Below, in pieces: positions 5,415 to 54,415 of a stretch of DNA of 64,000 nucleotides. The position numbers were made by a program, and so were the translations under genes. The first letter of the stretch is position 1. Every line of letters starts with the position of its first letter. The DNA comes from Salinivirgaceae bacterium (GTDB lineage Bacteria; Bacteroidota; Bacteroidia; Bacteroidales; SZUA-534), in assembly GCA_016284875.1 (NCBI GenBank), contig JAEEPS010000001.1, forward strand, positions 62,001 through 126,000. Direction: 5' to 3'. The notes under the pieces are model-generated. The model did no database searches, had not been told where the DNA came from, and worked only from the letters and a program-made list of their open reading frames with translations.

Positions 5415-6548
5415 ATGAGATTTGCAGACATTATCGGGCAGGACGACATCAAGCGGCATCTGATTGGAACCGTGAAGGAGAACCGCATCAGCCATGCGCA
5501 GATGTTTCTTGGGCGCGAGGGCTACGGCACTCTCCCGCTGGCCATCGCATATGCGCAATACATCAACTGCCAGCACCGCACCGACGACGACTCGTGCGGC
5601 GAGTGCCCCAGTTGCCGACAGATTTCGCAACTCGCCTTCCCCGACCTGCACTTCGTCTTTCCCGTGCCCGCCACAGGCACGTCGAAGGAGAAGCCCGTGA
5701 GCGACACCTTCTTCAGCAAATGGTCGGAGTTTATCCGCCAGAACCCCTACGGCAGTTATCAGCAATGGCTCGACTATGTGGAAGCGGGCAACTCGCAAGG
5801 CCTCATCCGAGTGGACGAGAGCAGCGAGATTATCCGCAAACTCACCATGAAGACCTTCAACGCCGAGTATAAGATAATGATTATCTGGCTGCCCGAAAAG
5901 ATGAACGCCGACGCGTCGAACAAACTGCTCAAACTGATTGAGGAGCCTTATCCGAAGACGCTCTTCCTGCTGGTGGCCGAAAATTCGGAGAACATCATCT
6001 CCACCATCATTTCGCGAACGCAACTTGTGCGTGTGCCACGCATTGCCGATGCCGACCTCCGTGCGGGACTTCAGCGCACGAAAGGCCTGGGCAGCGCCGA
6101 TGCCGAAAAAATATCGCACATCAGCGAGGGCGACTTCAACAAGGCACTCGAATACAGCAGCCAGACCGCCGACCTCTCGCAGAACCTTGACATGTTCATC
6201 AAACTCATGCGCGTGAGTTACGCGTTCAGGGCCCCTGAAATGATTGCTCTGGCCGAGGAACTGGGCGCTCTTGGGCGCGAGAAGCAGAAGGCCTTCCTGA
6301 CCTACTGCGAGCGCATGATACGCGAGAACCTGATTATGAACCGCAACCTCAACAGCCTCACCCGCTTCACCGACGACGAAGGCAATTTTGCGCAGAAATT
6401 CTCACGGTTCATCCATCCGCAAAACTCTGGGCTGATTATCGAGACCATCGACAAGGCTTTCTACCACATATCGCGCAACGCAAGCGCCAAAATCGTATTC
6501 ATGGATACCATCATCACGCTGGCGCGATGCCTGCGGATGGCCTCATAA
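5415..6548 (+). CDS. holB: DNA polymerase III, delta-prime subunit
   Basis: Clamp-loader subunit of the replicative polymerase. Seen in the 377 residues: an N-terminal AAA+ module starting FADIIGQDDIKRHL, a Walker A position that reads GREGYGTLP and so lacks the GK[ST] needed for ATP hydrolysis (normal for delta-prime), a four-cysteine zinc module CQHRTDDDSCGECPSC at about residues 54-69, and the LLKLIEEP segment typical of clamp-loader subunits, with an SRT-like motif ISRTQLV after it. I start at the ATG at 5415 because upstream codons do not look like this family. A 4-TM protein gene follows 9 bases after the stop, so both are probably on one transcript. Confidence 0.93.
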   Translation: MRFADIIGQDDIKRHLIGTVKENRISHAQMFLGREGYGTLPLAIAYAQYINCQHRTDDDSCGECPSCRQISQLAFPDLHFVFPVPATGTSKEKPVSDTFFSKWSEFIRQNPYGSYQQWLDYVEAGNSQGLIRVDESSEIIRKLTMKTFNAEYKIMIIWLPEKMNADASNKLLKLIEEPYPKTLFLLVAENSENIISTIISRTQLVRVPRIADADLRAGLQRTKGLGSADAEKISHISEGDFNKALEYSSQTADLSQNLDMFIKLMRVSYAFRAPEMIALAEELGALGREKQKAFLTYCERMIRENLIMNRNLNSLTRFTDDEGNFAQKFSRFIHPQNSGLIIETIDKAFYHISRNASAKIVFMDTIITLARCLRMAS

Positions 6549-6557
6549 CTCACAACT

Positions 6558-6926
6558 ATGGTCAACTTTCTGAAATCGCTCTCATTCACACTTCTCTTGC
6601 CGTTCATCCACCTTACGGCGACGCTGCTCTGGCCCAATTTTGTGAGAGTTGCGCTGCCGCACGTGCTGCTCATCTACGGCATCCTCACCGTGCTCACCAT
6701 TGCGCACCTGCTTGTTGTGAGGGTTATAGTGCTCCGCCACCGCCAGCAGGCTCCGCTGATTGTGATGGCACTGAACATGCTCAAAATGCTGTTGAGCATT
6801 GTGCTGCTGTTTGTGGTGGTTGTTCCCTTCACGGGGAAAGACGCCGCCGTGGGCATCAACTTTGCCGTGGGCTATGTTTTCTTCCTCATTTTCGATTCGC
6901 AGATGGTGATTTGGATGATGAAGTAA
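6558..6926 (+). CDS. Small integral membrane protein, about four TM segments
   Basis: Function not recognised. The 122 residues are almost entirely hydrophobic and form about four membrane segments, roughly 8-26, 33-54, 65-85 and 96-117, separated by a basic loop (RVIVLRHRQQ) and a short loop with GKD. No catalytic motif is visible. Size and layout resemble the small AtpI-like or DUF6168-type proteins of Bacteroidota, but this is only a resemblance. It follows holB by 9 bases and probably shares its transcript. Confidence 0.6.
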   Translation: MVNFLKSLSFTLLLPFIHLTATLLWPNFVRVALPHVLLIYGILTVLTIAHLLVVRVIVLRHRQQAPLIVMALNMLKMLLSIVLLFVVVVPFTGKDAAVGINFAVGYVFFLIFDSQMVIWMMK

Positions 6927-6975
6927 TGATTTAATTGACTTCGCTTATCATTCAAAAATTCAATCGCTTATTTTT

Positions 6976-6992
6976 TGGCGTCCGCATGGCGG
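6976..6992. repeat. Short GC-rich hairpin between genes
   Basis: TCCGC-ATG-GCGGA forms a perfect 5-bp stem in the 150-base gap before ricT. The preceding TTTGGCGTCC is shared with the right arm of the hairpin at 9476-9496, so it may be a decayed copy of the same repeat. There is no T-run on either side that would make it a normal terminator. Confidence 0.35.
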
Positions 6993-7038
6993 AAAATTAA
7001 ATTGACGGCCTTTTCGGTGGATTTTTAGAACTTCTCTA

Positions 7039-7046
7039 TATATTTA
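7039..7046 (+). promoter_or_regulatory. Possible -7 box of the ricT operon
   Basis: TATATTTA is one mismatch from the TAnnTTTG box of the Bacteroidota primary sigma factor and lies about 30 bases before the ricT ATG. No convincing -33 TTTG is visible, so this is weak. Confidence 0.3.
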
Positions 7047-7076
7047 CCCGATTTTTTGGTTTGAACTACATATAAT

Positions 7077-8282
7077 ATGAGCGAAGATATATCAAGAGGC
7101 TGCCCAATTAAAAACATCGACCCCGAGGCAACAAACTGCCGCATAATTTATTCGGGGAAACTCAATGTTTTCGACTGGCTGAACGACGTTCCCGAGGGAA
7201 TCGACAAAAATGAAATTTACGAGGTGCGGTTCAAAAACACCCGTAAAGGATACTACTATAATCAGAACGGACTGCGCCTCACGACGGGCGACATTGTGGC
7301 TGTTGAGGCCTCGCCGGGCCACGACATCGGCATCATATCTCTCAAAGGTCCGCTGGTTCTGTGCCAACTGCGCAAGCACAACATCAATCCGCAAAGCGAA
7401 TTCAAGACCATCTACCGCAAGGTTAAACCAGTTGATATCGAGAAGTGGAAAGAGGCGATTGCGCTGGAGATTGACACAATGATTGAATCGCGCAAAATTG
7501 CCGCCGACCTCAAACTTGATATGAAGATTGGCGATGTTGAGTATCAGGGCGATAAGACCAAAGCCATATTCTATTATATTGCCGACGACCGCGTGGATTT
7601 CCGCCAACTCATCAAGGTGCTGGCCGACAGGTTCCACATTCGCGTGGAGATGCGCCAGATTGGAGCACGTCAGGAGGCTGGGCGCATTGGCGGCATCGGC
7701 TCGTGCGGACGCGAACTTTGCTGCTCAACATGGATGACCAACTTTGTGTCGGTGACAACCACGGCAGCGCGCTATCAGGAACTCTCACCCAACCCGCAGA
7801 AACTGGCCGGACAATGCTGCAAACTCAAATGCTGCCTCAACTACGAGGTGGATTCGTATATTGATGAGCGGAAAGATTTTCCGCCCTCGGATGTTCCGCT
7901 GCTCACCGAGACGGGCAAGGCCTACTATCAGAAAACCGATGTCTTCCGCCGCGTGATGTGGTACTCGGTGGGCGATGCAAACAGCCTCGACCTCATTCCA
8001 ATATCGGTTGAAAAGGTGAAGGAGTATATCCAGATGAACAAGCGCGGGCAAAAGGTGCAACTTGAGGCTACGGTGAATGAGTCGGAGTCGCAGGAAGAAT
8101 CAATAGACTTCAGCCAGGTGGTTGGTCAGGACAGTCTGACGCGATTCGACCAGTCGAAGCGGAAAAAGAAAAAGCACAACCGCGGTCGCGACCGAAACAA
8201 CCAAAGGCCACAACAGGGACAAAACCCCAAAAACAATCAAAGAAATGATTCGGGCAATAGCGAAAACGGTGGCGGTAATTAG
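7077..8282 (+). CDS. ricT: PSP1-domain protein, RicT/YaaT homologue
   Basis: Homologue of RicT, which in Bacillus works with RicA and RicF on RNase Y-dependent mRNA processing and is iron-sulfur linked; the role in Bacteroidota is not established. Seen in the 401 residues: a PSP1 domain at roughly 50-290, with the cysteine clusters SCGRELCC and GQCCKLKCC that mark the family, and a low-complexity tail rich in Lys, Arg, Asn and Gln from about residue 360. The last 38 bases also encode the start of gldH in another frame. The gldH and trmB genes follow, an arrangement that fits one operon. Confidence 0.88.
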   Translation: MSEDISRGCPIKNIDPEATNCRIIYSGKLNVFDWLNDVPEGIDKNEIYEVRFKNTRKGYYYNQNGLRLTTGDIVAVEASPGHDIGIISLKGPLVLCQLRKHNINPQSEFKTIYRKVKPVDIEKWKEAIALEIDTMIESRKIAADLKLDMKIGDVEYQGDKTKAIFYYIADDRVDFRQLIKVLADRFHIRVEMRQIGARQEAGRIGGIGSCGRELCCSTWMTNFVSVTTTAARYQELSPNPQKLAGQCCKLKCCLNYEVDSYIDERKDFPPSDVPLLTETGKAYYQKTDVFRRVMWYSVGDANSLDLIPISVEKVKEYIQMNKRGQKVQLEATVNESESQEESIDFSQVVGQDSLTRFDQSKRKKKKHNRGRDRNNQRPQQGQNPKNNQRNDSGNSENGGGN

Positions 8283-8718
8283 TGCGCTGTGGCTTGCCGC
8301 ATCGTGCACCAACAGCGCCATGTACGATTGCAGTTTCGACATGCCTGGCGAGCAATGGAATCGCGACAGCGTACTTGCTTTCAAGGTTGAAGTAACTGAT
8401 ACGGTGACTCCCTATAACATTTTGTTCTGCAATCGAATAACAGGGCAATATCCGTATAGCAACATGTTTCTGTTCATCACGATCGTAGCGCCAGACCGTT
8501 CGCGTCAGACCGACACTTTGGAGTGCATCCTGGCCGACAAGAAAGGCAAATGGCTCGGCAAAGGGTTCGGCAGCGTGTGGTCGAACACCGTCAACTACAA
8601 ACAAAACATCATCTTTCCGCAGAGCGGCGCATACACCTTCTATATTGAGCAGGCAATGCGCATTGAGAACCTTCCGCACGTGCTCGACGCGGGACTGAAA
8701 ATCGAAAAAACCAAATAA
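8245..8718 (+). CDS. gldH: GldH-like lipoprotein
   Basis: Outer-envelope lipoprotein of the GldH family, first described in Flavobacterium gliding and widely kept in non-gliding Bacteroidota. Seen: 157 residues, a signal peptide with lipobox LAASC (Cys 21), and a beta-rich body with the segments SNMFLFITI and GKGFGSVW typical of the family. The start lies inside ricT, a 38-base overlap in a different frame, which implies translational coupling. The exact role is inferred only from family. I saw no other gld genes in the window. Confidence 0.82.
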   Translation: MIRAIAKTVAVISALWLAASCTNSAMYDCSFDMPGEQWNRDSVLAFKVEVTDTVTPYNILFCNRITGQYPYSNMFLFITIVAPDRSRQTDTLECILADKKGKWLGKGFGSVWSNTVNYKQNIIFPQSGAYTFYIEQAMRIENLPHVLDAGLKIEKTK

Positions 8719-8726
8719 CAAATATT

Positions 8727-9437
8727 GTGGGAAAAGGCAAACTCGCAAAATTCCGTGAGAATGAGACTTTTGGCAATGTGATTCAGCCGGAAGTGACTGA
8801 TTTTATGAATTTTTCTCATCCGCTCAAAGGCAGATGGAACGCTGACGTGTTCAAAAACGACAATCCGATTGTGCTGGAACTTGGCTGCGGCAAGGGCGAA
8901 TACACAGTGGGCCTTGCACGCATGTTCCCCGACAAGAATTTCATCGGTGTTGACATTAAAGGCGCCCGCATCTGGACTGGAGCCAAGGAGTCGAATCTGG
9001 AGCAGATGACGAATGTGGCTTTCCTCCGCACCCGCATCGAAATCGTGAGCGCGTTTTTTGCGCCCGACGAGGTGAGCGAAATCTGGATAACCTTTCCCGA
9101 CCCGCAGATGAAGAAACGCCGCGCCAAAAAGCGCCTTACATCGAGTCTTTTCCTCACATCGTATCAGAAATTCCTGACCAATGGCGGCTGCATCAACTTG
9201 AAGACTGACAGCCGTTTCCTATACCATTACTCGCTGAAAGTGGCTCAACTCAACAACTTCGAAATCGAGCGCCAGACAGCCGACCTCTATGCCGAGCCAT
9301 GGGTTGACGATGTGCTTCGGATTAAAACCTACTACGAGCAGTTGCACATCGACGACGGCAACACTATCCACTACCTGAAATATCATCTGCCTCACAACAA
9401 GCAACTTGTGGAGCCGGAGGAGGATGAGGAGTTTTAA
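8727..9437 (+). CDS. trmB: tRNA (guanine-N7-)-methyltransferase
   Basis: SAM-dependent enzyme that makes m7G46 in tRNA. Seen in 236 residues: the SAM site VLELGCGKGEYTVG at about 49-62 followed by IGVDIKGARIW, and the family motif TFPDPQMKKRRAKKRL at about 121-136. The start is a GTG at 8727, eight bases after gldH; no ATG gives a complete N terminus. The last residues are acidic. The gene ends the ricT-gldH-trmB unit. Confidence 0.94.
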   Translation: MGKGKLAKFRENETFGNVIQPEVTDFMNFSHPLKGRWNADVFKNDNPIVLELGCGKGEYTVGLARMFPDKNFIGVDIKGARIWTGAKESNLEQMTNVAFLRTRIEIVSAFFAPDEVSEIWITFPDPQMKKRRAKKRLTSSLFLTSYQKFLTNGGCINLKTDSRFLYHYSLKVAQLNNFEIERQTADLYAEPWVDDVLRIKTYYEQLHIDDGNTIHYLKYHLPHNKQLVEPEEDEEF

Positions 9438-9475
9438 GTTATAAGTTTTTGAAGTTTTAAGTTATAAGTTTGTAG

Positions 9476-9496
9476 GGACGTCACAATTTGGCGTCC
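9476..9496. repeat. REP-like short palindrome
   Basis: GGACGTC and GGCGTCC form a 7-bp stem (one G-T pair) around the loop ACAATTT. It is preceded by TTTGTAG, as is the longer palindrome at 35409-35438 (TTTGTAGAGACG against TTTGTAGGGACG). No T-run follows on either strand, so it is more likely a dispersed palindromic repeat than a terminator. Confidence 0.55.
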
Positions 9497-9655
9497 GAAA
9501 AAAATATCTATGTTTTAAGTTTAGAGGGTTTAGTGCTTCGCAGTTGAGAGAGTTGAGAAATTGATTTCTCGCAAAGAGGCATCATCATTTTGGTTGTATG
9601 CCCTGACGGGCAGAAATTATTAGAAAATTTATAAGAAAATTGTTCAAAATATATG

Positions 9656-9721
9656 TCTAACCAAACTTATCCAAACAAAACCCGAATCGCGTTTTGGTTA
9701 ATTTGGGTTCGTTTGGTTAGA
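9656..9721. repeat. 66-base inverted repeat
   Basis: The ends TCTAACCAAAC (9656-9666) and GTTTGGTTAGA (9711-9721) are perfect 11-base inverted repeats. The interior also pairs imperfectly: CCAAACAAAACCCGAAT on the left against ATTTGGGTTCGTTTGG on the right. It could fold as one long hairpin or be a small non-autonomous element. It lies about 220 bases before trpS. Confidence 0.6.
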
Positions 9722-9917
9722 GATAAAAAACTAAAAATCAATTTTTTATAAATTTTTAAAATCGATTTTCTTAAAATTTCTCGCGAAGCGAAAACCGTTT
9801 TATGTGGAATTATGTGGTCTTCATGTAGAGATTTGGCTTGCCTCAACAGAAGAATATCGTTAATTCGGCTTATCTTGTTGATATAAAACATCTTTCAAAA
9901 AAATGGCATCAGAAATC

Positions 9918-9946
9918 GTTTTTTTATAGAAATCGCTTTAAGTTTG
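9918..9946 (+). promoter_or_regulatory. Likely trpS promoter
   Basis: TAAGTTTG at 9939-9946 is an exact TAnnTTTG box, 17 bases before the trpS ATG, with a T-rich stretch at 9919-9926 at about the -33 position. The leader would be very short. Confidence 0.55.
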
Positions 9947-9963
9947 CGCACAAATAGAAATAT

Positions 9964-10953
9964 ATGGAAACAGTAGTTAGCGGAATCCGGCCGACCGGAA
10001 ACCTTCATTTGGGAAATTATTATGGTGCTGTCAAAAGTTTTGTGAAGATGCAGGACGAATATAACTGCCTCTATTTCATTGCCGACTGGCACTCACTCAC
10101 AACACACCCGAAACCCGAGAACATTCAGAACAGCGTCAAGACAATTCTGGCCGAATATCTGGCTTGCGGAATCGACCCCGACAAGGCGACAATATATGTG
10201 CAAAGCGATGTGCCTGAGACAGTTGAATTGTATCTCTACCTGAATATGAACACCTACATTGGCGAACTCGGCCGCGTGACCACTTTCAAAGAGAAGGCCC
10301 GCAAGCAGCCCGACAACGTGAACGCAGGACTCTTCACCTACCCCACGCTGATGGCCGCCGACATTCTGCAACACCGCGCCATCAAGGTGCCAGTGGGCAA
10401 AGACCAGGAGCAGAATATGGAGATGGCCCGCAAGTGCGCCCGCCGCTTCAACAACATCTACGGCGTGGAATACTTCCCCGAGCCAAAGAATTTCTATTTC
10501 AGTGACCATGCTGTGAAGGTTCCTGGACTCGACGGCAGCGGCAAGATGGGCAAGAGCGAAGGCAACTGCATCTATCTTTTTGAGGACGCTAAAACGATAA
10601 CCAAAAAGGTGATGCGCGCCGTGACCGATGCAGGACCGCAAACACCGAACAGCGAGAAACCCGAGGTAATCCAGAACCTGTTCACACTGATGGAAATTGC
10701 CAGCACGCCAGACACTTACGAATATTTCAACAGCAAGTGGAATGACTGCACCCTGCGCTACGGCGACATGAAAAAGCAGTTGGCCGAGGATATTGTCAAA
10801 ACAATTGCGCCAATCCGCGAGCGTATTCTTGAGTATTCGTCGAACACCGATTTACTCAACAAAATTGCCCGCCAAGGTGCCGAAAAGGCTCGCGAAAGCG
10901 CAGCAAAAACACTTAACGAAGTGCGTAAGATAATCGGCTTCAGAGTGTACTGA
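9964..10953 (+). CDS. trpS: Tryptophanyl-tRNA synthetase
   Basis: Class I aminoacyl-tRNA synthetase that charges tRNA-Trp. Seen in 329 residues: the HIGH-type motif PTGNLHLGNYYG at about 10-21 and the KMSKS-type motif GKMGKSEGN at about 195-203, with normal length for the bacterial enzyme. It has its own promoter box just upstream. A propeller protein follows after 36 bases, perhaps on the same transcript. Confidence 0.98.
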   Translation: METVVSGIRPTGNLHLGNYYGAVKSFVKMQDEYNCLYFIADWHSLTTHPKPENIQNSVKTILAEYLACGIDPDKATIYVQSDVPETVELYLYLNMNTYIGELGRVTTFKEKARKQPDNVNAGLFTYPTLMAADILQHRAIKVPVGKDQEQNMEMARKCARRFNNIYGVEYFPEPKNFYFSDHAVKVPGLDGSGKMGKSEGNCIYLFEDAKTITKKVMRAVTDAGPQTPNSEKPEVIQNLFTLMEIASTPDTYEYFNSKWNDCTLRYGDMKKQLAEDIVKTIAPIRERILEYSSNTDLLNKIARQGAEKARESAAKTLNEVRKIIGFRVY

Positions 10954-10989
10954 ATAAGCCATTTATGACAATAAAGCCAACATTGTGAT

Positions 10990-12114
10990 ATGCCATTCAA
11001 GAAAACGCGCCGATTAGCAACAACGCTCCTGACTTGTCTGGCACTGACCGCTGCAGGTGGCGAAAAAGGCTCTGTGGTTGTCAAAATTGATGGGAAGTTC
11101 TACTCAACACCCATCGTCACAACCGACGGCAACGTGGTCATAGCCTCGCACAACAAGACAATCTACCTCTTCAACAGCAACGGACAGTTGCAAAACTCAT
11201 TCACCGCGGGAGGATGGATTCACGCCACTCCGCGCCAACTCTCAAACGGACAGATTGCCTTTGGCTGCTACGACAAGTATTTCTATTTTCTCGACAAGGA
11301 CGGCAACTTTCTGAGCCGTATAAAGCCTGGAGGCCGCATTTTCACCGAGCCAGCCGAGATGGGCGATGTTATTGCCTTCGGCACGAGCAAGGGCAAGGTG
11401 GCTTTCTACAACCTCCGCACGGGCGAAACGCGCTACGCGAAACTTGGCGGCCGAGTGATTCACGGCTCTCCGCTGGCATTGAGCAACGGCAGTGTGGCCA
11501 TTGGCGGAAACAGCCGTCGGTTCTGCATCATCGACACGTGCGCCAACATTCAGGCACGGCTCAAAACCAAAGGCTGGATTATGCACGCCAAGCCTGCCGA
11601 AACATCTGAAAACCAGATAACTATCGGCACCTACGGCAAACGGCTCTACTCTGTTGACACACTCTGCAACAAACTCTGGACATACAAAGTTGACGGACGG
11701 ATTCACAGTTCGATAATGGCGACACCCGATAACAATTTGATTTTCGGCTCGTTCGATGGCAACATCTACAGCATAAGTTCAAATGGTTCGCTCACAGGCA
11801 AATACAACGCTGGCAAGAGGGTGGTTTCATCGCCCTGCATGGTCAACGACACCGCATTCGCCATCTGCGGAATGGACAACAATTTATATCTGTTTAATAC
11901 TCAATGTCGAAAGTTGGGTCATATAAAGTGCAACGGTAAGTTCTTCTCAACGCCAATCGTCATGCACGACGGCACATTGTTCTGCTGCACTATGGACGGC
12001 TTGCTCTATTTCATTGCAAAAGAGATGGTTGACGACATTTTGTCGGGCCGCGCAACCGAGATTACCATCGATGCCGAACCAGTGCCTCTGGAATCGGCCA
12101 AAAACAACCTTTAA
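10990..12114 (+). CDS. PQQ-like beta-propeller repeat protein
   Basis: Function unknown. The 374 residues consist of a basic, hydrophobic N terminus (probable signal sequence, about 1-22) followed by eight or so repeats of about 38 residues, each carrying patterns like STPIVTTDGNVVIAS, IYLFNSNG and GWIHATPRQLSNG. This is the signature of a PQQ/outer-membrane-assembly type propeller. The repeats are unusually regular. No enzymatic domain is attached. It sits between trpS and a DUF2461 gene with short gaps (36 and 11 bases). It may be a periplasmic scaffold; that is inference. Confidence 0.75.
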   Translation: MPFKKTRRLATTLLTCLALTAAGGEKGSVVVKIDGKFYSTPIVTTDGNVVIASHNKTIYLFNSNGQLQNSFTAGGWIHATPRQLSNGQIAFGCYDKYFYFLDKDGNFLSRIKPGGRIFTEPAEMGDVIAFGTSKGKVAFYNLRTGETRYAKLGGRVIHGSPLALSNGSVAIGGNSRRFCIIDTCANIQARLKTKGWIMHAKPAETSENQITIGTYGKRLYSVDTLCNKLWTYKVDGRIHSSIMATPDNNLIFGSFDGNIYSISSNGSLTGKYNAGKRVVSSPCMVNDTAFAICGMDNNLYLFNTQCRKLGHIKCNGKFFSTPIVMHDGTLFCCTMDGLLYFIAKEMVDDILSGRATEITIDAEPVPLESAKNNL

Positions 12115-12125
12115 ACGCTGCCAAA

Positions 12126-12803
12126 ATGATAAATCCTGCCGACAATATAATGCCGTTTCTTGCTGAACTGCAAGTGAATAACAACAAGCCGTGGTTCGAT
12201 AAAAACCGCGACTGGTACAAACGTGCGCAGGCCGATTTTGTCCAACTGATTGCCGATATTATTGAAATAATGGCCGACACGGAACGCGATTTGGCAGGGC
12301 TTGCTGCCAAAGACTGCATCTACCGCATCTTCCGCGACCTGCGTTTCTCGCCCGACAAGACACCCTACAAAACCCATTTCTCGGCAAACATTGCGCCAGG
12401 CGGCAAAAACAGCAAACTCTGCGGATTTTATATTCAATTGGAACCCAACAATTTATCGATGTGCGGCGGCGGTCTTTGGATTGAGGACAAAAATATTCTG
12501 AAAGCCGTCCGCGATGAACTATATGTTGTGCCTGAGGACTTGCTCGACATCCTCAATTCGGCTGATTTCAAGCGCTATTTCAGCGGTTTGTGGGATTATC
12601 AGAAACTGAAAAAGGTGCCAACTGGCTACGACAGCAATTTCGCCCATGCCGACCTTCTGAAATACAAGCACTACATCGCCTCAAACGACATGTCGGACCA
12701 TCTTGTGGCCTCGCCCAACCTCTACAGTCACATTGCCGAAGCCCACAAAACGCTTTACCCGATGTTCAGGCTGCTGAACTCCATCATTGAGGAGATGGTT
12801 TAG
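12126..12803 (+). CDS. DUF2461 family protein
   Basis: Member of the DUF2461/TIGR02453 family of unknown function. Seen in 225 residues: the typical N-terminal block NNKPWFDKNRDWYKRA, then FRDLRFSPDKTPYKTHFSA and GFYIQLEPNNLSMCGGGLW. No signal peptide or membrane segment, so probably cytoplasmic. It starts 11 bases after the propeller gene, and so may be translated from the same message. It converges on a rubrerythrin gene. Confidence 0.87.
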   Translation: MINPADNIMPFLAELQVNNNKPWFDKNRDWYKRAQADFVQLIADIIEIMADTERDLAGLAAKDCIYRIFRDLRFSPDKTPYKTHFSANIAPGGKNSKLCGFYIQLEPNNLSMCGGGLWIEDKNILKAVRDELYVVPEDLLDILNSADFKRYFSGLWDYQKLKKVPTGYDSNFAHADLLKYKHYIASNDMSDHLVASPNLYSHIAEAHKTLYPMFRLLNSIIEEMV

Positions 12804-20128: not shown

Positions 20129-20599
20129 ATGAGAACACAAGAAGAATTGGCAGGTGTAACCCTGTTGGGCGACAAACGGACGGAATATCCGACCGACTAC
20201 GCGCCGCAAATGCTTGAGACGTTCGTCAACAAGCACCCCGAGAACGATTATCTGGTAACGCTGAACTGCCCCGAGTTCACCACGCTCTGCCCCAAAACCG
20301 GGCAGCCCGATTTCGCGCACATTGTCATCAACTACATTCCCGGCGAGCGAATGGTTGAGAGCAAGTCGCTGAAACTCTATCTGTTCAGTTTCCGCAACCA
20401 CGGCGATTTTCACGAGGACTGCATCAACATTATTATGAAAGACCTTGTGGCGCTGATGCAGCCGCGATACCTTGAGGTTTACGGCATTTTCACGCCGCGC
20501 GGCGGAATATCAATCTACCCGTTCGCCAACTACGCCGATGATGCTCATCAAGCATTGAAGCAGCAGCGTTTGCTGGCGCAGATGAATCGTACATTTTAA
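20129..20599 (+). CDS. queF: NADPH-dependent preQ0 reductase
   Basis: Reduces 7-cyano-7-deazaguanine (preQ0) to preQ1 in queuosine synthesis. Seen in 156 residues, the short single-domain form: the nucleophile Cys 54 in [11 protein letters not shown], the family motif [13 protein letters not shown], and the following HGDFHEDC block. It heads the queF-queC-queD-queE cluster, with its own promoter and short leader. GTP cyclohydrolase and the later steps (tgt, queA) are not in the window. Confidence 0.97.
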
Positions 20600-20611
20600 A
20601 CCGCCATTGCT

Positions 20612-21277
20612 ATGAAAGACAGCCTTCTGATACTGTCCGGCGGAATGGACAGCACAACGTTACTATATGAGTATCAAAACGATATAGCGCTTGCAGTATC
20701 GTTCGACTATGGCAGCAATCACAACGCCGACGAGATACCGTTTGCCGAATATCACTGCAAAAAGTTGGGAATCAAGCACACAACCGTGCGGCTCGATTTC
20801 TTCAAGCAGTATTTCCGCAGTTCGCTGCTCGAGGGCGCCGATGCCATTCCCGAGGGTACTTACGCCGATGAGAATATGAAATCGACAGTGGTGCCGTTCC
20901 GTAACGGAATAATGCTTGCGGTGGCCGCCGGAATGGCCGAGACTGCCGGGCTCAAGCATGTGATGATGGCCAACCACAGCGGCGACCACGCCATCTATCC
21001 CGACTGCCGTCCGCAGTTTGCCGACGCTATGAGCCGCGCCATCGAGGCTGGAACCTACGAGGGCATAACGCTGCTCACGCCGTACACCAACATCTCGAAG
21101 GCCGACATCTCCCGAAAGGGTAAACTTTTGGGTGTCGATTACTCGAAAACGTGGAGTTGCTACAAGGGCGGTGCCGTTCACTGCGGCCGCTGCGCCACCT
21201 GCATCGAGCGCAAAGAGGCTCTACGACTGGCGGGAATTGAAGATACAACGGAGTATGAAGATTCGGTGAATCGTTAA
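20612..21277 (+). CDS. queC: 7-cyano-7-deazaguanine synthase
   Basis: ATP- and ammonia-dependent enzyme making preQ0 from 7-carboxy-7-deazaguanine. Seen in 221 residues: the PP-loop LSGGMDSTT near the N terminus and the zinc-binding cysteines SCYKGGAVHCGRCATC at about 188-203. Starts 12 bases after queF. Length normal. Confidence 0.97.
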   Translation: MKDSLLILSGGMDSTTLLYEYQNDIALAVSFDYGSNHNADEIPFAEYHCKKLGIKHTTVRLDFFKQYFRSSLLEGADAIPEGTYADENMKSTVVPFRNGIMLAVAAGMAETAGLKHVMMANHSGDHAIYPDCRPQFADAMSRAIEAGTYEGITLLTPYTNISKADISRKGKLLGVDYSKTWSCYKGGAVHCGRCATCIERKEALRLAGIEDTTEYEDSVNR

Positions 21278-21365
21278 ACTGGTGAATTGGTGAATCGACT
21301 ATAAAAAACTAACACCACATTTAACTTAAAACTTTAAATCATATAACTTAAAAACCATTTTTCCA
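21278..21365. repeat. Gap with GGTGAATC repeat pieces
   Basis: Between queC and queD lie AACTGGTGAATTGGTGAATC and AACTTAAAACTTTAAATC-type units like those in the gaps at 9.4, 13.5, 16.4 and 30.3 kb. No gene and no clear terminator. Confidence 0.5.
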
Positions 21366-21701
21366 ATGTTTTATGTATCGAAACGACTAGAAATTTCATC
21401 GGCCCACAAGTTGAGCCTGCCATATCAGAGCAAGTGCACAAGTCTGCACGGCCACAACTGGATTGTAACCGTTTATTGCAAGGCTGAAAAACTGAACGCC
21501 GACGGTATGGTTGTCGATTTTTCACGCATCAAAAGCGTCATCGTCGATCAACTCGACCACAAGGTGATTAACGACGTGCTGGGCGACATCAACCCGACGG
21601 CCGAGAATCTGGCCTATTGGATTTGTCAGCAGATTGAGAACTGCTACAAGGTGACCGTGCAGGAAACCGAAGGGAACATTGCCACATATGAGAAGGATTA
21701 A
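21366..21701 (+). CDS. queD: 6-carboxytetrahydropterin synthase
   Basis: Converts dihydroneopterin triphosphate to 6-carboxytetrahydropterin, the second step of queuosine synthesis. Seen in 111 residues: SSAHKLSLP with the first zinc His, CTSLHGHNW with the catalytic Cys and two more zinc His, LDHKVIND, and the C-terminal PTAENLAYWI with Glu. Length is that of the short bacterial QueD. The end overlaps queE by 14 bases. Confidence 0.95.
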   Translation: MFYVSKRLEISSAHKLSLPYQSKCTSLHGHNWIVTVYCKAEKLNADGMVVDFSRIKSVIVDQLDHKVINDVLGDINPTAENLAYWICQQIENCYKVTVQETEGNIATYEKD

Positions 21702-22239
21702 CGAGATTTTCGAAAGCCTTCAGGGCGAGGGATTCCACACAGGCACGCCGGCTGTTTTTGTGCGCTTCTCGGGCTGCAATCTTGCCTGCCCCTTCTGCGA
21801 CACCGACCACAGCGCCTTCACCACTATGACCGACGAGCAGATAGCCGCCGCTGTGGCGCAGTTCAAGCCCGAATTGGTGGTGCTCACTGGCGGCGAACCC
21901 GGACTGCAAGTGTCTGACCGGCTGATTGATTTGCTGCACGCTGAAGGTCGCATGGTTGCCATCGAAACCAACGGCACCTGTCCGTTGCCCGCCGGAATCG
22001 ACTGGGTGACGGTTTCGCCAAAAGAGGGCAGCACCCCCGTGCTCACCGCAGCCAACGAGGTGAAAGTTGTATTTCAGGCTGATACCGATGTTGAGAAATG
22101 GCTCGCACAAATTGCTGCCGACCATTATTTCCTTCAACCTTGCTCGTGCAAGAACACAACAGAGACTATAGCCTACATTATGGAACACCCGCATTGGCGG
22201 CTCTCGGTGCAGACACATAAATATTTGGGAATTCAATAG
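21688..22239 (+). CDS. queE: 7-carboxy-7-deazaguanine synthase
   Basis: Radical SAM enzyme that turns carboxytetrahydropterin into 7-carboxy-7-deazaguanine. Seen: the cluster motif CNLACPFC (C-x3-C-x2-C) and TGGEPGLQ, with the conserved N terminus INEIFESLQGEG. I start at the ATG at 21688 (183 residues), inside the end of queD, rather than the TTG three codons earlier. It is the last gene of the que cluster. Confidence 0.96.
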   Translation: MRRINEIFESLQGEGFHTGTPAVFVRFSGCNLACPFCDTDHSAFTTMTDEQIAAAVAQFKPELVVLTGGEPGLQVSDRLIDLLHAEGRMVAIETNGTCPLPAGIDWVTVSPKEGSTPVLTAANEVKVVFQADTDVEKWLAQIAADHYFLQPCSCKNTTETIAYIMEHPHWRLSVQTHKYLGIQ

Positions 22240-23089: not shown

Positions 23090-25456
23090 TTATTGTGCCG
23101 TAATATCATCAACATTATGTTCCTTCATGTATGCCTGAAGTTCAAGTTTGAGTCTTTCTTTGAGGTCGTCTTCCTTGTTTTTACTGATCGACACAACTAT
23201 CACTCGATACGGCTCCTCATCTTTATACACTACTTTGTAATATTCCTCAGTATGGAAAACATTGCCTCTGATTGTCGAAATCTGCTGCCGTTGGCCCTTG
23301 CCGCTTGCCAGCACTTTCTTCCAGAAGGTGCCGAATGCATCGGCCACTGAATCGTCCTGAGCAACAACGGTAATATATGGGAACCCGGCAAGATTATCGC
23401 TGTTGATGCCGTAGAACGACGACATCTGGCCAGACATGCTAATAATGTTGCCTTCCAAATCCAACTCTGCTGTCATCAGGCCATCGCGGAATGCGTTAAT
23501 CTGCGAGTCGAGCGCCTCCTGCCGTTTTGTGGCCTCCTCCTGGGTGGCTTGCATCTCTTCCAGATTCTGACGCATCTCCTCCTCGTGCTGCGACAACTCT
23601 TCGGCCTGCTCGTTCGACTGTTCAAGCAGGTGCGCGTTGTGAATGTTGGTGTTGACACTTGATATAACCGAAGCAATATTCTCACATAGTTTTTCGATGA
23701 ACTCTATCTTATATTGCTCAATGTGGTTATACGACACAAGTTCCAATATGCCATAAATCTCATCGTTTACAACCATAGGCACAATCAGCAGGTTGCTTGG
23801 CTTGTGCGCTTCCTTCTTACCTTGCGTAAACGAAACATAACTTTCCGGAATGTCTTCAAGATAGATGCACTTCTGCTCGTCTATCACACGGCCAAATATG
23901 CCGTCCCGGTCAGTTATTGTACTATCGAGCATTATTTGTTTGCCATAGGCTATGGCAGCCTTGTTCTCGAACTTCAACTCTTCGCTATACTGCTCCTCAA
24001 CCTTGAAATACATGGCACCCTGCACAATATCAACATACTGCAGAAGTTGCGAAAGCAGATTGTAGGCGAAATCATTAATGTTATCGTTATCCTGACGAAT
24101 AATCTCGCCAAAGTTTGCCAGACCATGAGTAACCCAGTTGCGCTGGCCGTCCAATATTTTTTTCTTGTCCTCCTCCTCTTTTGCCAGAATAAGACTTTTC
24201 TGCATGGTTTTCAACGATTCGCCAAGAGTGTCGCCATCGCTAAGCAAATTATATTCTGTTTCGAGATTGCCCTTTCCGATTTCACCAGCAAAGTCCACTG
24301 ATGCCTGAAGGCTGTCGAACAGATTGTCGAGCGAATTTGTAAGGTCGGTTATCTCGCTTTCAAACACCACGTCCTTCTTTTCTTCCTTATCAATAATACC
24401 GAGCGAAAGATGGGCCAACTTGTTGTTGATCTGTACAATAGAGTTCGATATGTTTCGTGCCACAATCGATATTACAATCGACAGCAGAATAAAGCCCGCA
24501 AGAATCAATAAAACCACATTGATAAACGACTTGTTAGCCTGTGCCGTTACCAAAGACACCGGTGTTGTTGAAAATGCATACCATGCAGTATTAGGCATGG
24601 CCATTTTCTTGAAAGAACAAATTACGCGTTTTTTGTTGGTGTCATGGCCCACAAAAGTAGTATCGGCAGGCATGCTGTCGAGCGGCATGCTGATGGATGT
24701 TTGTATTGTCCCGATAAGGCTTGCGTCAGAAGAGTAAATATAACGTCCGTTGTTCGAGATGAGGTTTAATACCTCCCCCTCCTCATTTTCTATTTCTGAC
24801 ATTTTCTCCTGAACATAATCAAGAGAAAAATCGATGCCGATAACGCCCACACATTCATCCCAAACAATAATCGGGGCTACGACTGATGTTACAAGCATTG
24901 AATCGCCCGAATTGTAACTGTAAAAATACGGATCAAGCATGGATACGGCCTTCGTGCTACGCGGAATGGTATAAAACTCCTTCTCATAAGGCGGCATTCC
25001 TGTGTTCACCTCTGCTTTAATTTCATCGCCGTCGCGATAGAATGATGGCGAATAACTACCGGTGGCAGTGGCGTCTTCAGCAAGAACATTGTTTTCGTCG
25101 AGTTCGTCGATAGAGTTTGGCTCCCAAATTGACCAGATTGATAAAATGCTGCTGTTTCCGCTTATCACCTCATGAAGCATATTGGTGAAAAACGGGCGTC
25201 GTGCCTCCTCTTCAATGTTCTCATAATCCTGCATGGTTGTGGCAAGAGCCGAAACTATTCTTGTTTTGCTTTCAACCATTCCTTTAGCTCTATTCGACAA
25301 ATTGTTGGTTTTCTGCAGAATATCGGCACTACTCATTTCTTTGGTTATGTCTCTCACCTCAAATCCAACGTATCCGAGTGAAGCCACATATACTAATAGC
25401 GATGCTCCCAAGAAATAGAACATCATTTTTCGGTGTATGCGTTTTTTGAAATTCAT
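23090..25456 (-). CDS. Membrane sensor: Cache, HAMP, GAF, coiled coil, PAS; no output domain
   Basis: Probable signal-sensing protein at the inner membrane. Seen in 788 residues: TM at about 12-33, a double-Cache type periplasmic domain to about 305 (with TGSYSPSFYRDGDEI, IIVWDECVGVIGIDFSLDYV), second TM about 308-332, HAMP-like region with SLGIIDKEEKKDVVFESE, a GAF domain at about 455-605, a coiled coil QHEEEMRQNLEEMQATQEEATKRQ, and a C-terminal PAS domain (about 650-770). No histidine kinase, GGDEF, EAL or methyl-accepting domain follows. It lies 28 bases behind a paralogue of the same layout, so both are likely on one message. Which signal it reads is unknown. Confidence 0.8.
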   Translation of the reverse strand: MNFKKRIHRKMMFYFLGASLLVYVASLGYVGFEVRDITKEMSSADILQKTNNLSNRAKGMVESKTRIVSALATTMQDYENIEEEARRPFFTNMLHEVISGNSSILSIWSIWEPNSIDELDENNVLAEDATATGSYSPSFYRDGDEIKAEVNTGMPPYEKEFYTIPRSTKAVSMLDPYFYSYNSGDSMLVTSVVAPIIVWDECVGVIGIDFSLDYVQEKMSEIENEEGEVLNLISNNGRYIYSSDASLIGTIQTSISMPLDSMPADTTFVGHDTNKKRVICSFKKMAMPNTAWYAFSTTPVSLVTAQANKSFINVVLLILAGFILLSIVISIVARNISNSIVQINNKLAHLSLGIIDKEEKKDVVFESEITDLTNSLDNLFDSLQASVDFAGEIGKGNLETEYNLLSDGDTLGESLKTMQKSLILAKEEEDKKKILDGQRNWVTHGLANFGEIIRQDNDNINDFAYNLLSQLLQYVDIVQGAMYFKVEEQYSEELKFENKAAIAYGKQIMLDSTITDRDGIFGRVIDEQKCIYLEDIPESYVSFTQGKKEAHKPSNLLIVPMVVNDEIYGILELVSYNHIEQYKIEFIEKLCENIASVISSVNTNIHNAHLLEQSNEQAEELSQHEEEMRQNLEEMQATQEEATKRQEALDSQINAFRDGLMTAELDLEGNIISMSGQMSSFYGINSDNLAGFPYITVVAQDDSVADAFGTFWKKVLASGKGQRQQISTIRGNVFHTEEYYKVVYKDEEPYRVIVVSISKNKEDDLKERLKLELQAYMKEHNVDDITAQ

Positions 25457-25484
25457 TGCTGTTCTTTTTTAATGTTTTCGAGAG

Positions 25485-28199
25485 TTATGCCTCTTTGTTA
25501 AGAATCTCGTTTATCTCCTTGCTTGCTATTTCCCAATCTGACTTAACCGAATCAAAAATCTTCGGAATAGAAGTCAGGTTTCTGTCTTCGTCAATCAGTT
25601 TTATAATTGTATCCAAAGAATTGTACATCTGTTTCAAATCCAAATAGTTGGCTTTAGTCATCAGAGATTTTGCTTCAACCTTCAAAACCTTGTAATTGCG
25701 GTTTTTGATGAAGTCGCTCATGTCGGCTATTTGCTTTGGAATCTGCTCGTTGTAGCGCTTAAGAATGGTCTCGATTTTTTCAGTGTCGTTTTTATACACC
25801 AAGTTCAAATGCGCCAGATTCACAAGCCGCTGGTCTTCCTCACTTTCCGTTTTATTCAATTGTTTCTTTATCTCGTCAGGAATGAATCCGTCTTGAATCA
25901 TTTGAATCTGATTCTCAATCTTTTTCTCTTCAGTTATATCAATGAACACCACCAAAACTTCGGTAACCGTATTAGTGGATGAATCAGTGACTGGTATCAT
26001 TTTTTCACGAAGCCATTTTTCCTTTTTGCCATCGTTTACCAGTTCCTCTGTCTCCATGGTTTTGCCTCCAAGCAGGTCTTCCCAAAGACGATTATGATAA
26101 AGCTGCTCTTTTTCATTCATAATCAAAGAGCCCTTGTGGCGCTTGCCTATAACATTTTCGCGTTTGGCTTTTGTCAGTTTCAAATATTCGTCGTTGACTT
26201 CAGTGATGCGCTGGTTTGTGTCGAAAATGGCCATCGGGACGGTATCGTGATAACCTTCGATGATGGATGTCAGTTCCTCCTCTTTCTGAGTCTGCTCCTC
26301 TTGGGTGGCCTGCATTTCCTCCATGTTCTGCCGGATTTCTTCCTCCTGCTGCTCAAGCACTTCGGCCTGATGTTTCGATTTCTCGAGCAACCGCGCTGTC
26401 TGTCCGTTGATTTCAACTGTTGATATGGTCGACGCTATATTCTCCGCCAGTTTTTCAACAAACGCAATCTGATAAGGTTGGATAATCTTGAACGAGTATA
26501 ATTCAATGATTCCTGCCAGGTTCTTGTTGTAGATGAGCGGCACAACTAATACAGATTTAGGCAGTGCCTTGCCCAATCCCGAACTAATTTTGTCAGTATC
26601 TGTCGGTATTTCGCTAATGAAAATTGTTTCTTTTTCAAGGTATGCACGGCCGACAATTCCTTCGCCCGGAGCCACAAAATGAGTTTCCAGTTTTTCCTTG
26701 TCGAATCCCATAGAAGCAATCATCTCCACTCCCTCTCGGTCATTGGGCACGATGTAGAACGCTCCCATTTGAGAATCGAGATATAGGATAAGATTCTTGA
26801 TTATCTCTTCGGCAAGCACTTTCATGTTGTCGTTGTCGACACGTAAAACCTTGTTGAACAAGTTGATGCCGCTTGATGCCCAGTTAAGTTCCTCTTCTTC
26901 TGTTTTGCGAAGTTTTTCCTCTTCTTTGGCGTGGTCAAGGCTGTTCTTCATTTCGATGATGGCGTTTCCGAGGACATCTTTGTCGCTCAATGGCGAGAAT
27001 TTATAGTCGGAATTGCCGTTACCAATGTTCTCGGCAAATTTGGTTACCTGCAAAAGTCCGTCGACCACTTTGTTCGACGAGTCGGCCATCTGCCCAAGTT
27101 CATCATCGCTATTGATATCCATCTTCAATGCATCGTCGACCTGACCGAGTGAAAGTTTGTTGATGATGGCATTCACATTCTTTATCGGTGTTACTATCTT
27201 AACAGACAAGATGAAGATGATGATAGCCAGAATAATAAGACCGAAGATGATTACACGTGTAACGAATTTAAGCGATGTTCCAATTTGTGCATCTATCTCA
27301 CCCGCCGTGTGAGAAGTTATGAGTCTCCACTCGTTGTTCAGACCGGCAGGCGAAACGGTGATTGTAGAGAAATAAACACTGTCTAATCCTTTAGTGTTTT
27401 TCAAAACAAAATTGTCGCTATTCTTAACTGTCGCTCTGTATAATACTGAATCGATTTCTTCAAATTTTAAACCAACCAAATCGGCATTGGGGTAACCGAT
27501 AATTGTGTTTCCGCCCGAAACAATAACAATGTTTTGCTGATTTTTCGTGATAGTTGTGTCAATAAACTGACAAATGGCGTTAAGGTTCACATCGGCGCTC
27601 AACACTCCAACGAATCCGCTTTCATCTTCAATAGGAACGGCTATTGATGATTTTACGTAACGCTTTGTTGATGAGCCGTCGGGAATAAAAAGTTCCGGTT
27701 CAGAAAGAATGGCTTTTTCACTATTTTTCACCTCGTAAAAGGTTCCAACAGGATTCTCAAAATCATAATCATAGTCTTTAATATCCAGCCTTGTTCCCAA
27801 CGACGTGTTTTGCGCAATTATCGAGCGGCGTCCGTTGACTGAGGATGAAGGAATGAACTTGTTGTCGAAACTTACCCACGCATAAGACAGCAATTGATTG
27901 CTGCCGCATATGCTCCGCATCATGTTTTTGTAGATTTCCTCATTGTTGTCATATCCATTGGACAACGATGATTCAATAGACGATTTCAGCGTAAGAAGTT
28001 CCTGATATTCGCTGCTCATAATATTTGAAACAGATACGGCAATATTGCCCAGCATGCTGGCATCACGCTTTGATACGTTCTCAATTATTGACGCCTTGAA
28101 TTGTTTGTTAATTATGTTTGCAGCAAAAAATATTACCAAAAATACGGTACTCAGCACCAGCGCAAGAACTCTGTAACTTAAACGAACCCTAATTTTCAT
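25485..28199 (-). CDS. Membrane sensor: Cache, HAMP, GAF, coiled coil, PAS and a degenerate HPt-like end
   Basis: Paralogue of the next gene. From the ATG at 28199 (904 residues; numbering here counts from the longer frame start at 28226): TM about 17-38, Cache domain, TM about 318-342, HAMP, GAF about 455-600, coiled coil EEEIRQNMEEMQATQEEQTQKEE, PAS about 640-765. After it come about 110 helical residues, NLVYKNDTEKIETILKRY ... LKVEAKSLMTKANYLDLKQM, which match the layout of an HPt domain (AHxLKGxxxxLG) but with Lys 853 where the phosphorylated His would be. No kinase domain. I infer a non-phosphorylatable HPt fold that may bind a response regulator. The start at 28199 is supported by the basic-then-hydrophobic N terminus. 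Confidence 0.78.
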   Translation of the reverse strand: MKIRVRLSYRVLALVLSTVFLVIFFAANIINKQFKASIIENVSKRDASMLGNIAVSVSNIMSSEYQELLTLKSSIESSLSNGYDNNEEIYKNMMRSICGSNQLLSYAWVSFDNKFIPSSSVNGRRSIIAQNTSLGTRLDIKDYDYDFENPVGTFYEVKNSEKAILSEPELFIPDGSSTKRYVKSSIAVPIEDESGFVGVLSADVNLNAICQFIDTTITKNQQNIVIVSGGNTIIGYPNADLVGLKFEEIDSVLYRATVKNSDNFVLKNTKGLDSVYFSTITVSPAGLNNEWRLITSHTAGEIDAQIGTSLKFVTRVIIFGLIILAIIIFILSVKIVTPIKNVNAIINKLSLGQVDDALKMDINSDDELGQMADSSNKVVDGLLQVTKFAENIGNGNSDYKFSPLSDKDVLGNAIIEMKNSLDHAKEEEKLRKTEEEELNWASSGINLFNKVLRVDNDNMKVLAEEIIKNLILYLDSQMGAFYIVPNDREGVEMIASMGFDKEKLETHFVAPGEGIVGRAYLEKETIFISEIPTDTDKISSGLGKALPKSVLVVPLIYNKNLAGIIELYSFKIIQPYQIAFVEKLAENIASTISTVEINGQTARLLEKSKHQAEVLEQQEEEIRQNMEEMQATQEEQTQKEEELTSIIEGYHDTVPMAIFDTNQRITEVNDEYLKLTKAKRENVIGKRHKGSLIMNEKEQLYHNRLWEDLLGGKTMETEELVNDGKKEKWLREKMIPVTDSSTNTVTEVLVVFIDITEEKKIENQIQMIQDGFIPDEIKKQLNKTESEEDQRLVNLAHLNLVYKNDTEKIETILKRYNEQIPKQIADMSDFIKNRNYKVLKVEAKSLMTKANYLDLKQMYNSLDTIIKLIDEDRNLTSIPKIFDSVKSDWEIASKEINEILNKEA

Positions 28200-54329: not shown

Positions 54330-54387
54330 CAAATTACGGCTCAATTAACTTTTTTTGAAACGTTGAATTTACGTGCCAAATTTTGTG

Positions 54388-54395
54388 CATATTTG
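54388..54395 (+). promoter_or_regulatory. Possible promoter box of the SpoIIE sensor
   Basis: CATATTTG is one base off TAnnTTTG and is followed by an A/T-rich leader to the ATG at 54416. A TTG at 54363-54365 may be the -33 element. Confidence 0.35.
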
Positions 54396-54415
54396 AAATA
54401 ATTAAATTTCAGAAA

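Follow-up and report, generated by a model that had tools for sequence, protein, structure and literature searches.

The window analysed here, a stretch of 64,000 nucleotides from a Salinivirgaceae bacterium (G000:C66:62001-126000, in an assembly of 3.57 Mb and 160 contigs), contains two neighbouring minus-strand genes for membrane receptors, the upstream P2 (P0002) and the downstream P1 (P0001). Both belong to a Bacteroidales receptor family whose members mostly lack an output enzyme, and P2 ends in a complete histidine phosphotransfer (HPt) fold without the phospho-accepting histidine. In the reading ranked first, which is held tentatively and rated somewhat short of an even chance, P1 and P2 are the receptor pair of a CheA-free pathway that is tuned by methylation and switched by a phosphatase, with CheR, CheB, SpoIIE and SiaBC as its output. 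The features of the pair are given below by position in the window (TM, transmembrane helix; AF2, AlphaFold2; family genomes, those of the same taxonomic family).

25485-28199, minus strand: P2 receptor, 904 amino acids (aa) from the ATG, TM-dCache-TM-HAMP-GAF-coil-PAS-pseudo-HPt (Pfam, AF2; orthologue in 20/20 family genomes)
27300-28097, minus strand: P2 periplasmic dCache sensor, approximately residues 35-300 (Pfam dCache_1 6.9e-5, below cut-off; AF2 model)
27024-27200, minus strand: P2 HAMP region, approximately residues 334-392 (Pfam HAMP 0.037)
26406-26825, minus strand: P2 GAF domain, residues 459-598 (Pfam GAF_2 5.2e-15)
26295-26354, minus strand: P2 conserved coil EQQEEEIRQNMEEMQATQEE, residues 616-635, three Glu-Glu pairs with a spacing of 7
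25905-26243, minus strand: P2 PAS domain, residues 653-765 (Pfam PAS_4 4.5e-11, above cut-off)
25503-25814, minus strand: P2 pseudo-HPt four-helix bundle, residues 796-899 (AF2, HptB alignment, profile search)
25668-25670, minus strand: P2 Lys844 codon, aligned with the His of HPt segments
25457-25484, minus strand: gap of 28 bases between P2 and P1
23090-25456, minus strand: P1 receptor, 788 aa, TM-dCache-TM-HAMP region-GAF-coil-PAS-like end (Pfam; orthologue in 20/20 family genomes)
24557-25354, minus strand: P1 periplasmic Cache sensor, approximately residues 35-300 (Pfam MCP-like_PDC_1 3.8e-6, above cut-off; dCache_1 4.7e-7, below)
23663-24079, minus strand: P1 GAF domain, residues 460-598 (Pfam GAF_2 3.1e-11)
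23534-23587, minus strand: P1 conserved coil HEEEMRQNLEEMQATQEE, residues 624-641 (16/18 columns invariant in 20 orthologues)
23192-23494, minus strand: P1 PAS-like region, weak, approximately residues 655-755 (Pfam PAS 0.081)

Architecture and conservation of the pair

A preliminary description of this DNA, made from the sequence alone, had recognised two adjoining genes 28 bases apart, and these are open reading frames (ORFs) on the minus strand, at 23090-25456 and 25485-28199. Aligned as it proposed, the two proteins share 31% identity across 537 residues (E 3e-56). The common Cache-HAMP-GAF-coil-PAS layout that it gave them holds for the GAF domain, the Cache-type sensor and the PAS domain of P2, but less well for the remainder, because the Pfam matches to HAMP in both of the window's own proteins and to PAS in P1 are very weak. 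Among the orthologues (Pfam, E<=0.001), dCache is found in 19/20 P1 and 18/20 P2 proteins, HAMP in 2/20 and 11/20, and PAS in 3/20 and 20/20, so that the sequence support for a PAS domain in P1 is poor. The coil that it quoted is near-identical in the two proteins, with EEEMRQNLEEMQATQEE in P1 and EEEIRQNMEEMQATQEE in P2; the sequence quoted for P2 thus differs from the actual one by a single residue.

An AlphaFold2 model of P2, made with the 20 orthologues, consists of a TM helix, a Cache-like domain, a second TM helix, the HAMP region, GAF, coil, PAS and a helical bundle. The mean predicted local distance difference test score (pLDDT) is 77 and the predicted template modelling score 0.39, and the single domains are therefore usable but not their relative arrangement. 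The top matches of the model among PDB structures are mostly Cache ligand-binding domains of chemoreceptors (PctD, TlpQ, PctA), and a search of PDB with the P2 sequence gave weak chemoreceptor, GAF and PAS matches only.

No kinase, cyclase or methyl-accepting chemotaxis protein (MCP) signalling domain was found in P1 or P2 with Pfam and NCBIfam, nor in the 20 + 20 orthologues with Pfam at E<=0.001, as the preliminary description had maintained for the pair. The HisKA and HATPase domains of sensor and hybrid kinases are likewise absent from P1, P2 and their orthologues. Features that the pair has in common with MCPs of the dCache type, such as PctA and TlpQ, are the Cache sensor in the periplasm, the two TM helices, a HAMP region and a coil in which Glu/Gln pairs follow at intervals of seven; CheR and CheB are also present in the genome. 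Unlike MCPs, the two proteins have GAF and PAS domains in the cytoplasm and lack the signalling hairpin PF00015, which was found neither in the orthologues nor anywhere in the window's own genome; membership of the MCPs was rejected on this ground.

Among 40 related genomes, 20 of which belong to the same taxonomic family (the window included), P2 is followed by P1 on one strand at a distance of 12-129 bases in all 20 family genomes. The ORFs are full-length in each of them, at identities down to 33-34%, with 784-798 aa for P1, 903-936 aa for P2 and alike ends, which rules out truncation or a sequencing error. No orthologue occurs singly in these genomes and none is fused to a kinase according to Pfam; either finding would have spoken against the preliminary interpretation. 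Both genes are under purifying selection in close pairs, dS (synonymous divergence) being saturated in the others. These observations support that the pair is maintained as a unit. P1 and P2 are probably co-expressed, and their arrangement is consistent with a single transcript.

The genes flanking the pair are common only to close relatives, and no conserved neighbour that might serve as a partner was found beside the pairs. Genes that by eye resemble those for tryptophanyl-tRNA synthetase and DXP synthase adjoin several of them. In the window itself, genes that by eye belong to queuosine-precursor synthesis (QueF, QueC, QueD and QueE-like) follow one another at 20129-22239 on the plus strand.

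A search with the P1 alignment gave 25 named loci, of which 13 are titled Salinivirgaceae and 8 of those come from ruminant stomachs. Twelve of the 25 were read: six contain the pair, five contain receptor arrays (L089, L096, L097, L098 and L100) and one, from Shiella aurantiaca (L099), has a lone distant core relative of 432 aa. The arrays consist of three or four tandem receptors with one pseudo-HPt member each, and may be longer because all five loci are cut; L097 begins with the end of another receptor.

The preliminary description had derived the pair from a duplication. In a tree of the core region only (FastTree, 99 selected sequences, midpoint root, several deep nodes poorly supported), the P1 orthologues form a clade with support 0.999, or 0.993 when four array members are included, and the P2 orthologues one with 0.954, or 0.997 with five pseudo-HPt array members. 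The two clades are not sisters and each groups with other paralogues, the separating nodes having moderate support (0.78 and 0.85). A recent local duplication, at least in its simple version, is thus not supported; the pairing is old, and the tree suggests that the paralogues themselves are apparently older still.

An HPt fold without its histidine

The pair was also described as being without output domains, which is correct as regards enzymes but overlooks the end domain of P2. Folded alone, the last ~105 residues form a four-helix bundle with an AF2 pLDDT of 86. In Foldseek, the first 28 of 28 matches are HPt proteins (such as YPD1) or complexes containing one; the best E value is only 5.6e-3. 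Alignment of the P2 end to HptB with VIA-align gives Z 16.4 and a root mean square deviation of 2.0 over 115 residues, as against Z 12.1 for the best unrelated bundle. Pfam Hpt touches 8/20 P2 orthologues weakly (E<=10, best 4.4e-4), the window's own P2 not being one of them. A profile of the 20 P2 C-termini gave 44 matches besides the window's own in a sample of 296 genomes (best E 1.3e-15), and it recovers both Pfam Hpt proteins of the window's own genome. Against PDB sequences the same profile finds HPt proteins only at E ~0.1, below two CRISPR Csm5 matches, with 4euk_B as a named match of HPt type. The assignment is settled by the structure together with the genome profile search and not by the profile against PDB.

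At the active-site column, His is present in all 31 HPt segments examined among the 44 matches and in 0/25 C-termini of the P2 type (20 P2 orthologues and five relatives from the receptor arrays). The residues found instead are Lys in 12, Asn in 7, Ser in 2, and Phe, Thr, Ile and Val once each. The end domain does not seem decayed; it is under purifying selection in two close pairs, with a dN (nonsynonymous divergence) of 0.007 and 0.011 against a dS of 0.46 and 0.24. In the more distant comparison of the window with L050, the ratio of nonsynonymous to synonymous differences (pN/pS) is 0.39 for the end domain and 0.15 for GAF plus coil; the end domain is under weaker constraint and is thus unlikely to be the most critical part.

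The loss of the histidine, together with a core that is common to hybrid kinases of two related genomes (G038 and G032), might suggest that the pair is what remains of hybrid kinases that have decayed and no longer signal. This is very improbable considering the full-length ORFs in all 20 genomes, even at the lowest identities, and the purifying selection that close pairs show for P1, P2 and the end domain.

The end domain might instead bind receiver (REC) domains without phosphorylation and act as a decoy or anchor controlled by the ligand, with P1 as the obligate dimer partner of P2. The complete fold with the histidine gone in 25/25 sequences and the selection on the end domain in the two close pairs are in line with such a role, and plant AHP6 is a precedent, a pseudo-HPt with a mutated His that inhibits cytokinin signalling according to excerpts of PMC3572949. 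The P2 domain has the same fold and its active His is replaced as in AHP6, but it is bacterial and part of a membrane receptor, with no linked histidine kinase found. Only two proteins in the genome match Pfam Hpt (PF01627), which leaves no evident phosphorelay with which the domain could compete. P1 and most members of the receptor family have no HPt domain, and no conserved neighbour gene of the pair was found, although no scan for REC domains was made among the neighbours. The decoy is ranked third and considered rather unlikely. A receptor-bound pseudo-HPt is not described in the excerpts of PMC3842833 and PMC11481889.

The receptor family and the CheR-CheB-SpoIIE-SiaC cluster

The window's own genome contains, on another contig, a cluster (L016, G000:C100:2000-20000, at 5539-12178) that encodes CheR, a CheR-like protein, CheB, a GAF protein, SpoIIE, DUF6272 and SiaC, followed at its end by an ABC protein named by eye. 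This cluster is referred to as the hub. Its CheB has no REC domain and keeps the catalytic triad. CheR keeps the functional residues 98, 129 and 154 of the E. coli numbering, and the CheR-like protein, which has Cys in place of Asp154, is probably inactive judging by its sequence. DUF6272 is SiaB-like.

Among the selected loci whose neighbourhoods were read, eight contain the hub cluster (L016, L191, L192, L193, L204 and L216-L218), the last three of which belong to another order and have one CheR gene only. The gene names are mostly derived from BLAST against the window genome's own cluster, with Pfam used on L016, L186 and single proteins of L191, L197 and L200. CheB and SiaC matches lie 4.4-4.7 kb apart in 19/20 family genomes, the CheB of G010 being only a fragment; the exception is G019, which is 65% complete. 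G035 and G036 have the two parts of the cluster, CheR-CheB-GAF and SpoIIE-SiaB-SiaC, on separate contigs, and in G029 only CheR-CheB-GAF was read. A family receptor is found inside the hub cluster in G033 (L191) and adjoining SpoIIE-SiaB-SiaC in G035 and G036 (L111 and L115). In L111 of G035, a stand-alone protein like the zinc-binding CZB domain of chemoreceptors (Pfam 9.9e-6, below cut-off) is encoded at 9212-9556, with an output-less receptor on one side and the SpoIIE gene on the other.

The hub, and not the pair, holds a SpoIIE/PP2C phosphatase, a SiaB-type kinase and SiaC with a phospho-threonine motif in one cluster (Pfam SpoIIE, DUF6272, SiaC). The motif YFNTAS, present in 10/10 SiaC sequences, is like the SiaC peptide with Thr68 in PMC7647112. 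SiaABCD of Pseudomonas aeruginosa, as presented there, likewise combines a PP2C phosphatase, a kinase and SiaC, but has the one phosphatase SiaA and the diguanylate cyclase SiaD. Unlike SiaA, the hub phosphatase has no recognised periplasmic sensor, and its gene accompanies those for CheR, CheB and a GAF protein; unlike in SiaABCD, its core is shared by separate output-less receptors. PMC9239204, in its available sections, mentions SiaABCD and an auxiliary REC-less CheB in Campylobacterota but not the present system.

P2 has 11 matches in its own genome, namely ten core proteins and the GAF protein of the hub. Pfam found no enzyme domain in nine of the core proteins (P1, P2, C55, C157, C152, C102, C66b, C42 and C105), one of which is cut by a contig end. 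The tenth is the hub phosphatase, with the order TM-GAF-coil-PAS-PAS-SpoIIE (SpoIIE 2.2e-18, Pfam). Of 18 members scanned, 17 of which lie outside the window's genome, 15 have sensor and linker domains only, two carry SpoIIE and one carries Hemerythrin. The end of the C55 paralogue (L009, 10230-13001) looks by eye like a degenerate hemerythrin; Pfam matches Hemerythrin in its G017 relative L117 (2.3e-9) but neither in the protein itself nor in its end fragment (E<=0.1), and the assignment was rejected. A family receptor of 2654 aa in G029 (L103, 4554-12518) has 13 PAS_4 stretches and no output domain.

The distant core proteins of G038 and G032 are hybrid kinases that have the same HAMP-GAF-coil core and adjoin CheR and a REC-less CheB, but carry the HisKA, HATPase and receiver domains that P1 and P2 lack. 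In five che clusters (L185-L189) a core protein of 553-761 aa follows CheB, the one of 553 aa being cut by a contig end. Of these clusters, L186 is the one in which the names CheY, CheA, CheW, CheR, CheD and CheB rest on Pfam. L186 (1346-9813, from G015) also encodes a STAS protein, a HATPase protein of 299 aa between CheR and CheD, and a starting protein of 600 aa without a Pfam match.

Presence of the receptor family in the 40 genomes, defined as a P1 match at 1e-20 and including core proteins of any architecture, agrees with that of SiaC in 38 of them (both in 27, family only in 1, SiaC only in 1, neither in 11). Outside the window's taxonomic family the corresponding counts are 7/1/1/11 for SiaC (Fisher p 7.7e-4), 7/1/4/8 for CheB (p 0.028) and 5/3/2/10 for CheW (p 0.062), and these p values are too small because the genomes are related. 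In the 296-genome phylum sample the family is found in at least 4 genomes at E<=1e-40, a lower bound since few candidates were scored per genome (three in the family search); all 4 have SiaC, which occurs in 18/296, and three of the four belong to one taxonomic family.

MCPsignal has no match in the window's own genome, nor in 6/12 other genomes tested (G003, G007, G016, G033, G185 and G225), and is present in G011, G015, G017, G025, G035 and G036. CheB is found in the own genome and in all six others without MCPs, and in these no receptor is known on which it could act. For CheW, 11/11 genomes of the genus gave no match.

A different explanation is that the P1-P2 heterodimer regulates a single unlinked enzyme by contact (a kinase, a cyclase or another phosphatase) and that the CheR/CheB/SiaBC cluster is a separate pathway merely sharing domains. 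The strict pairing in 20/20 genomes, the distance between pair and hub, and the 19 further SpoIIE matches over cut-off in the own genome would all fit. On the other hand, the sole own core-family member that has an enzyme domain belongs to the hub, family receptors neighbour hub genes in G033, G035 and G036, and family presence matches SiaC. An unlinked partner is ranked second, though we regard it as unlikely. Another SpoIIE protein is encoded within the window, at 54383-57592 on the plus strand (1069 aa, propeller and Y_Y_Y matches, SpoIIE at the end).

Proposed coil methylation and signal output

The coil is the proposed site of adaptation. In the 99 family members, Glu is present at 91-96% for positions 626, 627, 633, 634 and 640 of P1 and at 87% for 641. 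This gives three E/Q pairs seven apart, a spacing as in residues 294-309 of E. coli Tar. Tar is methylated at 295, 302 and 309, which in its sequence are Q, E and Q. In the loci used, the three-pair pattern occurs in 72/97 family ORFs and in 1/456 other ORFs of at least 200 aa, a contrast that is overstated because the other ORFs are mostly not coiled coils. The lone non-family ORF with the pattern (L202, 1971-4442) is a CheR-coil-PAS fusion that adjoins CheB and has Glu-Glu pairs every seven residues.

In the mechanism that follows from the first-ranked reading, each receptor would sense a periplasmic ligand with its chemoreceptor-type Cache domain and pass the signal through HAMP and GAF to the highly conserved coil. 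The output would lie elsewhere in the genome, in the common hub, whose SpoIIE-type PP2C phosphatase is built on the same GAF-coil core. The receptors might pack with this phosphatase through the common coil and so set the rate of SiaC dephosphorylation, in a partner switch like that of SiaABC. CheR and CheB may tune the sensitivity by methylating the Glu-Glu pairs, and the pseudo-HPt of P2 might be a module for docking or for dimer pairing. Signalling by contact, as proposed in the preliminary description, is likely, but the contact partner may be the phosphatase hub common to several output-less receptors and not solely the other member of the pair. The architecture, the conservation of the pair, the pseudo-HPt, the size of the family, the lack of MCPs in the own genome, the hub and its co-occurrence with the family are observed, while a P1-P2 contact or heterodimer, an effect on the hub, coil methylation and a role for the pseudo-HPt are inferences.

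Several observations weigh against this reading. The pair does not adjoin the hub in its own genome (contig C66 as against C100), and none of the hub genes is conserved beside the 19 orthologous pairs. With 20 SpoIIE matches over cut-off in the genome, and 10 to SiaC, the partner could be another phosphatase. The strict E/Q three-pair pattern is found in 78/99 family members, or 38/59 when P1 and P2 orthologues are excluded, and by eye all three pairs are kept in only 2/5 aligned SpoIIE members. The coil, which in shortened form is also present in the hybrid kinases, may be no more than a signalling helix, and coiled coils often have regular Glu pairs.

The co-occurrence is clustered along lines of descent and has exceptions. 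G023 has SiaC and CheB and no family match at 1e-20, G028 (88% complete) has the family and SiaC without CheB, G021, G031 and G032 have CheB and no family match at 1e-20, and G038 has the family without SiaC, the core protein read there being a hybrid kinase. In the phylum sample, 14/18 genomes with SiaC have no family match at 1e-40. Finally, where MCPs are present, as in 6/12 genomes tested, CheB may merely serve chemotaxis.

In its full form the proposal is a chemosensory pathway free of CheA, CheW and MCPs, in which one SpoIIE phosphatase and a pool of output-less receptors, P1 and P2 included, have a methylation-tuned GAF-coil in common, CheR and CheB adapt the pool, SiaB and SiaC provide the output and the pseudo-HPt is a non-catalytic dock. 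So much detail is possible, with roughly one chance in three of being right as a whole. No description of this arrangement was found in literature searches, some of them narrow, and the system would be a novel arrangement of known parts.

Receptors without output domains are usually set aside as orphans. In the present case a family of such receptors points to a single hub, in which adaptation enzymes of the chemotaxis type are joined with a partner-switch phosphatase. If the proposed pathway is true, methylation-based receptor adaptation operates without a CheA array, CheR and CheB in genomes free of chemoreceptors gain a testable substrate, and P2 would provide a bacterial, receptor-bound pseudo-HPt.

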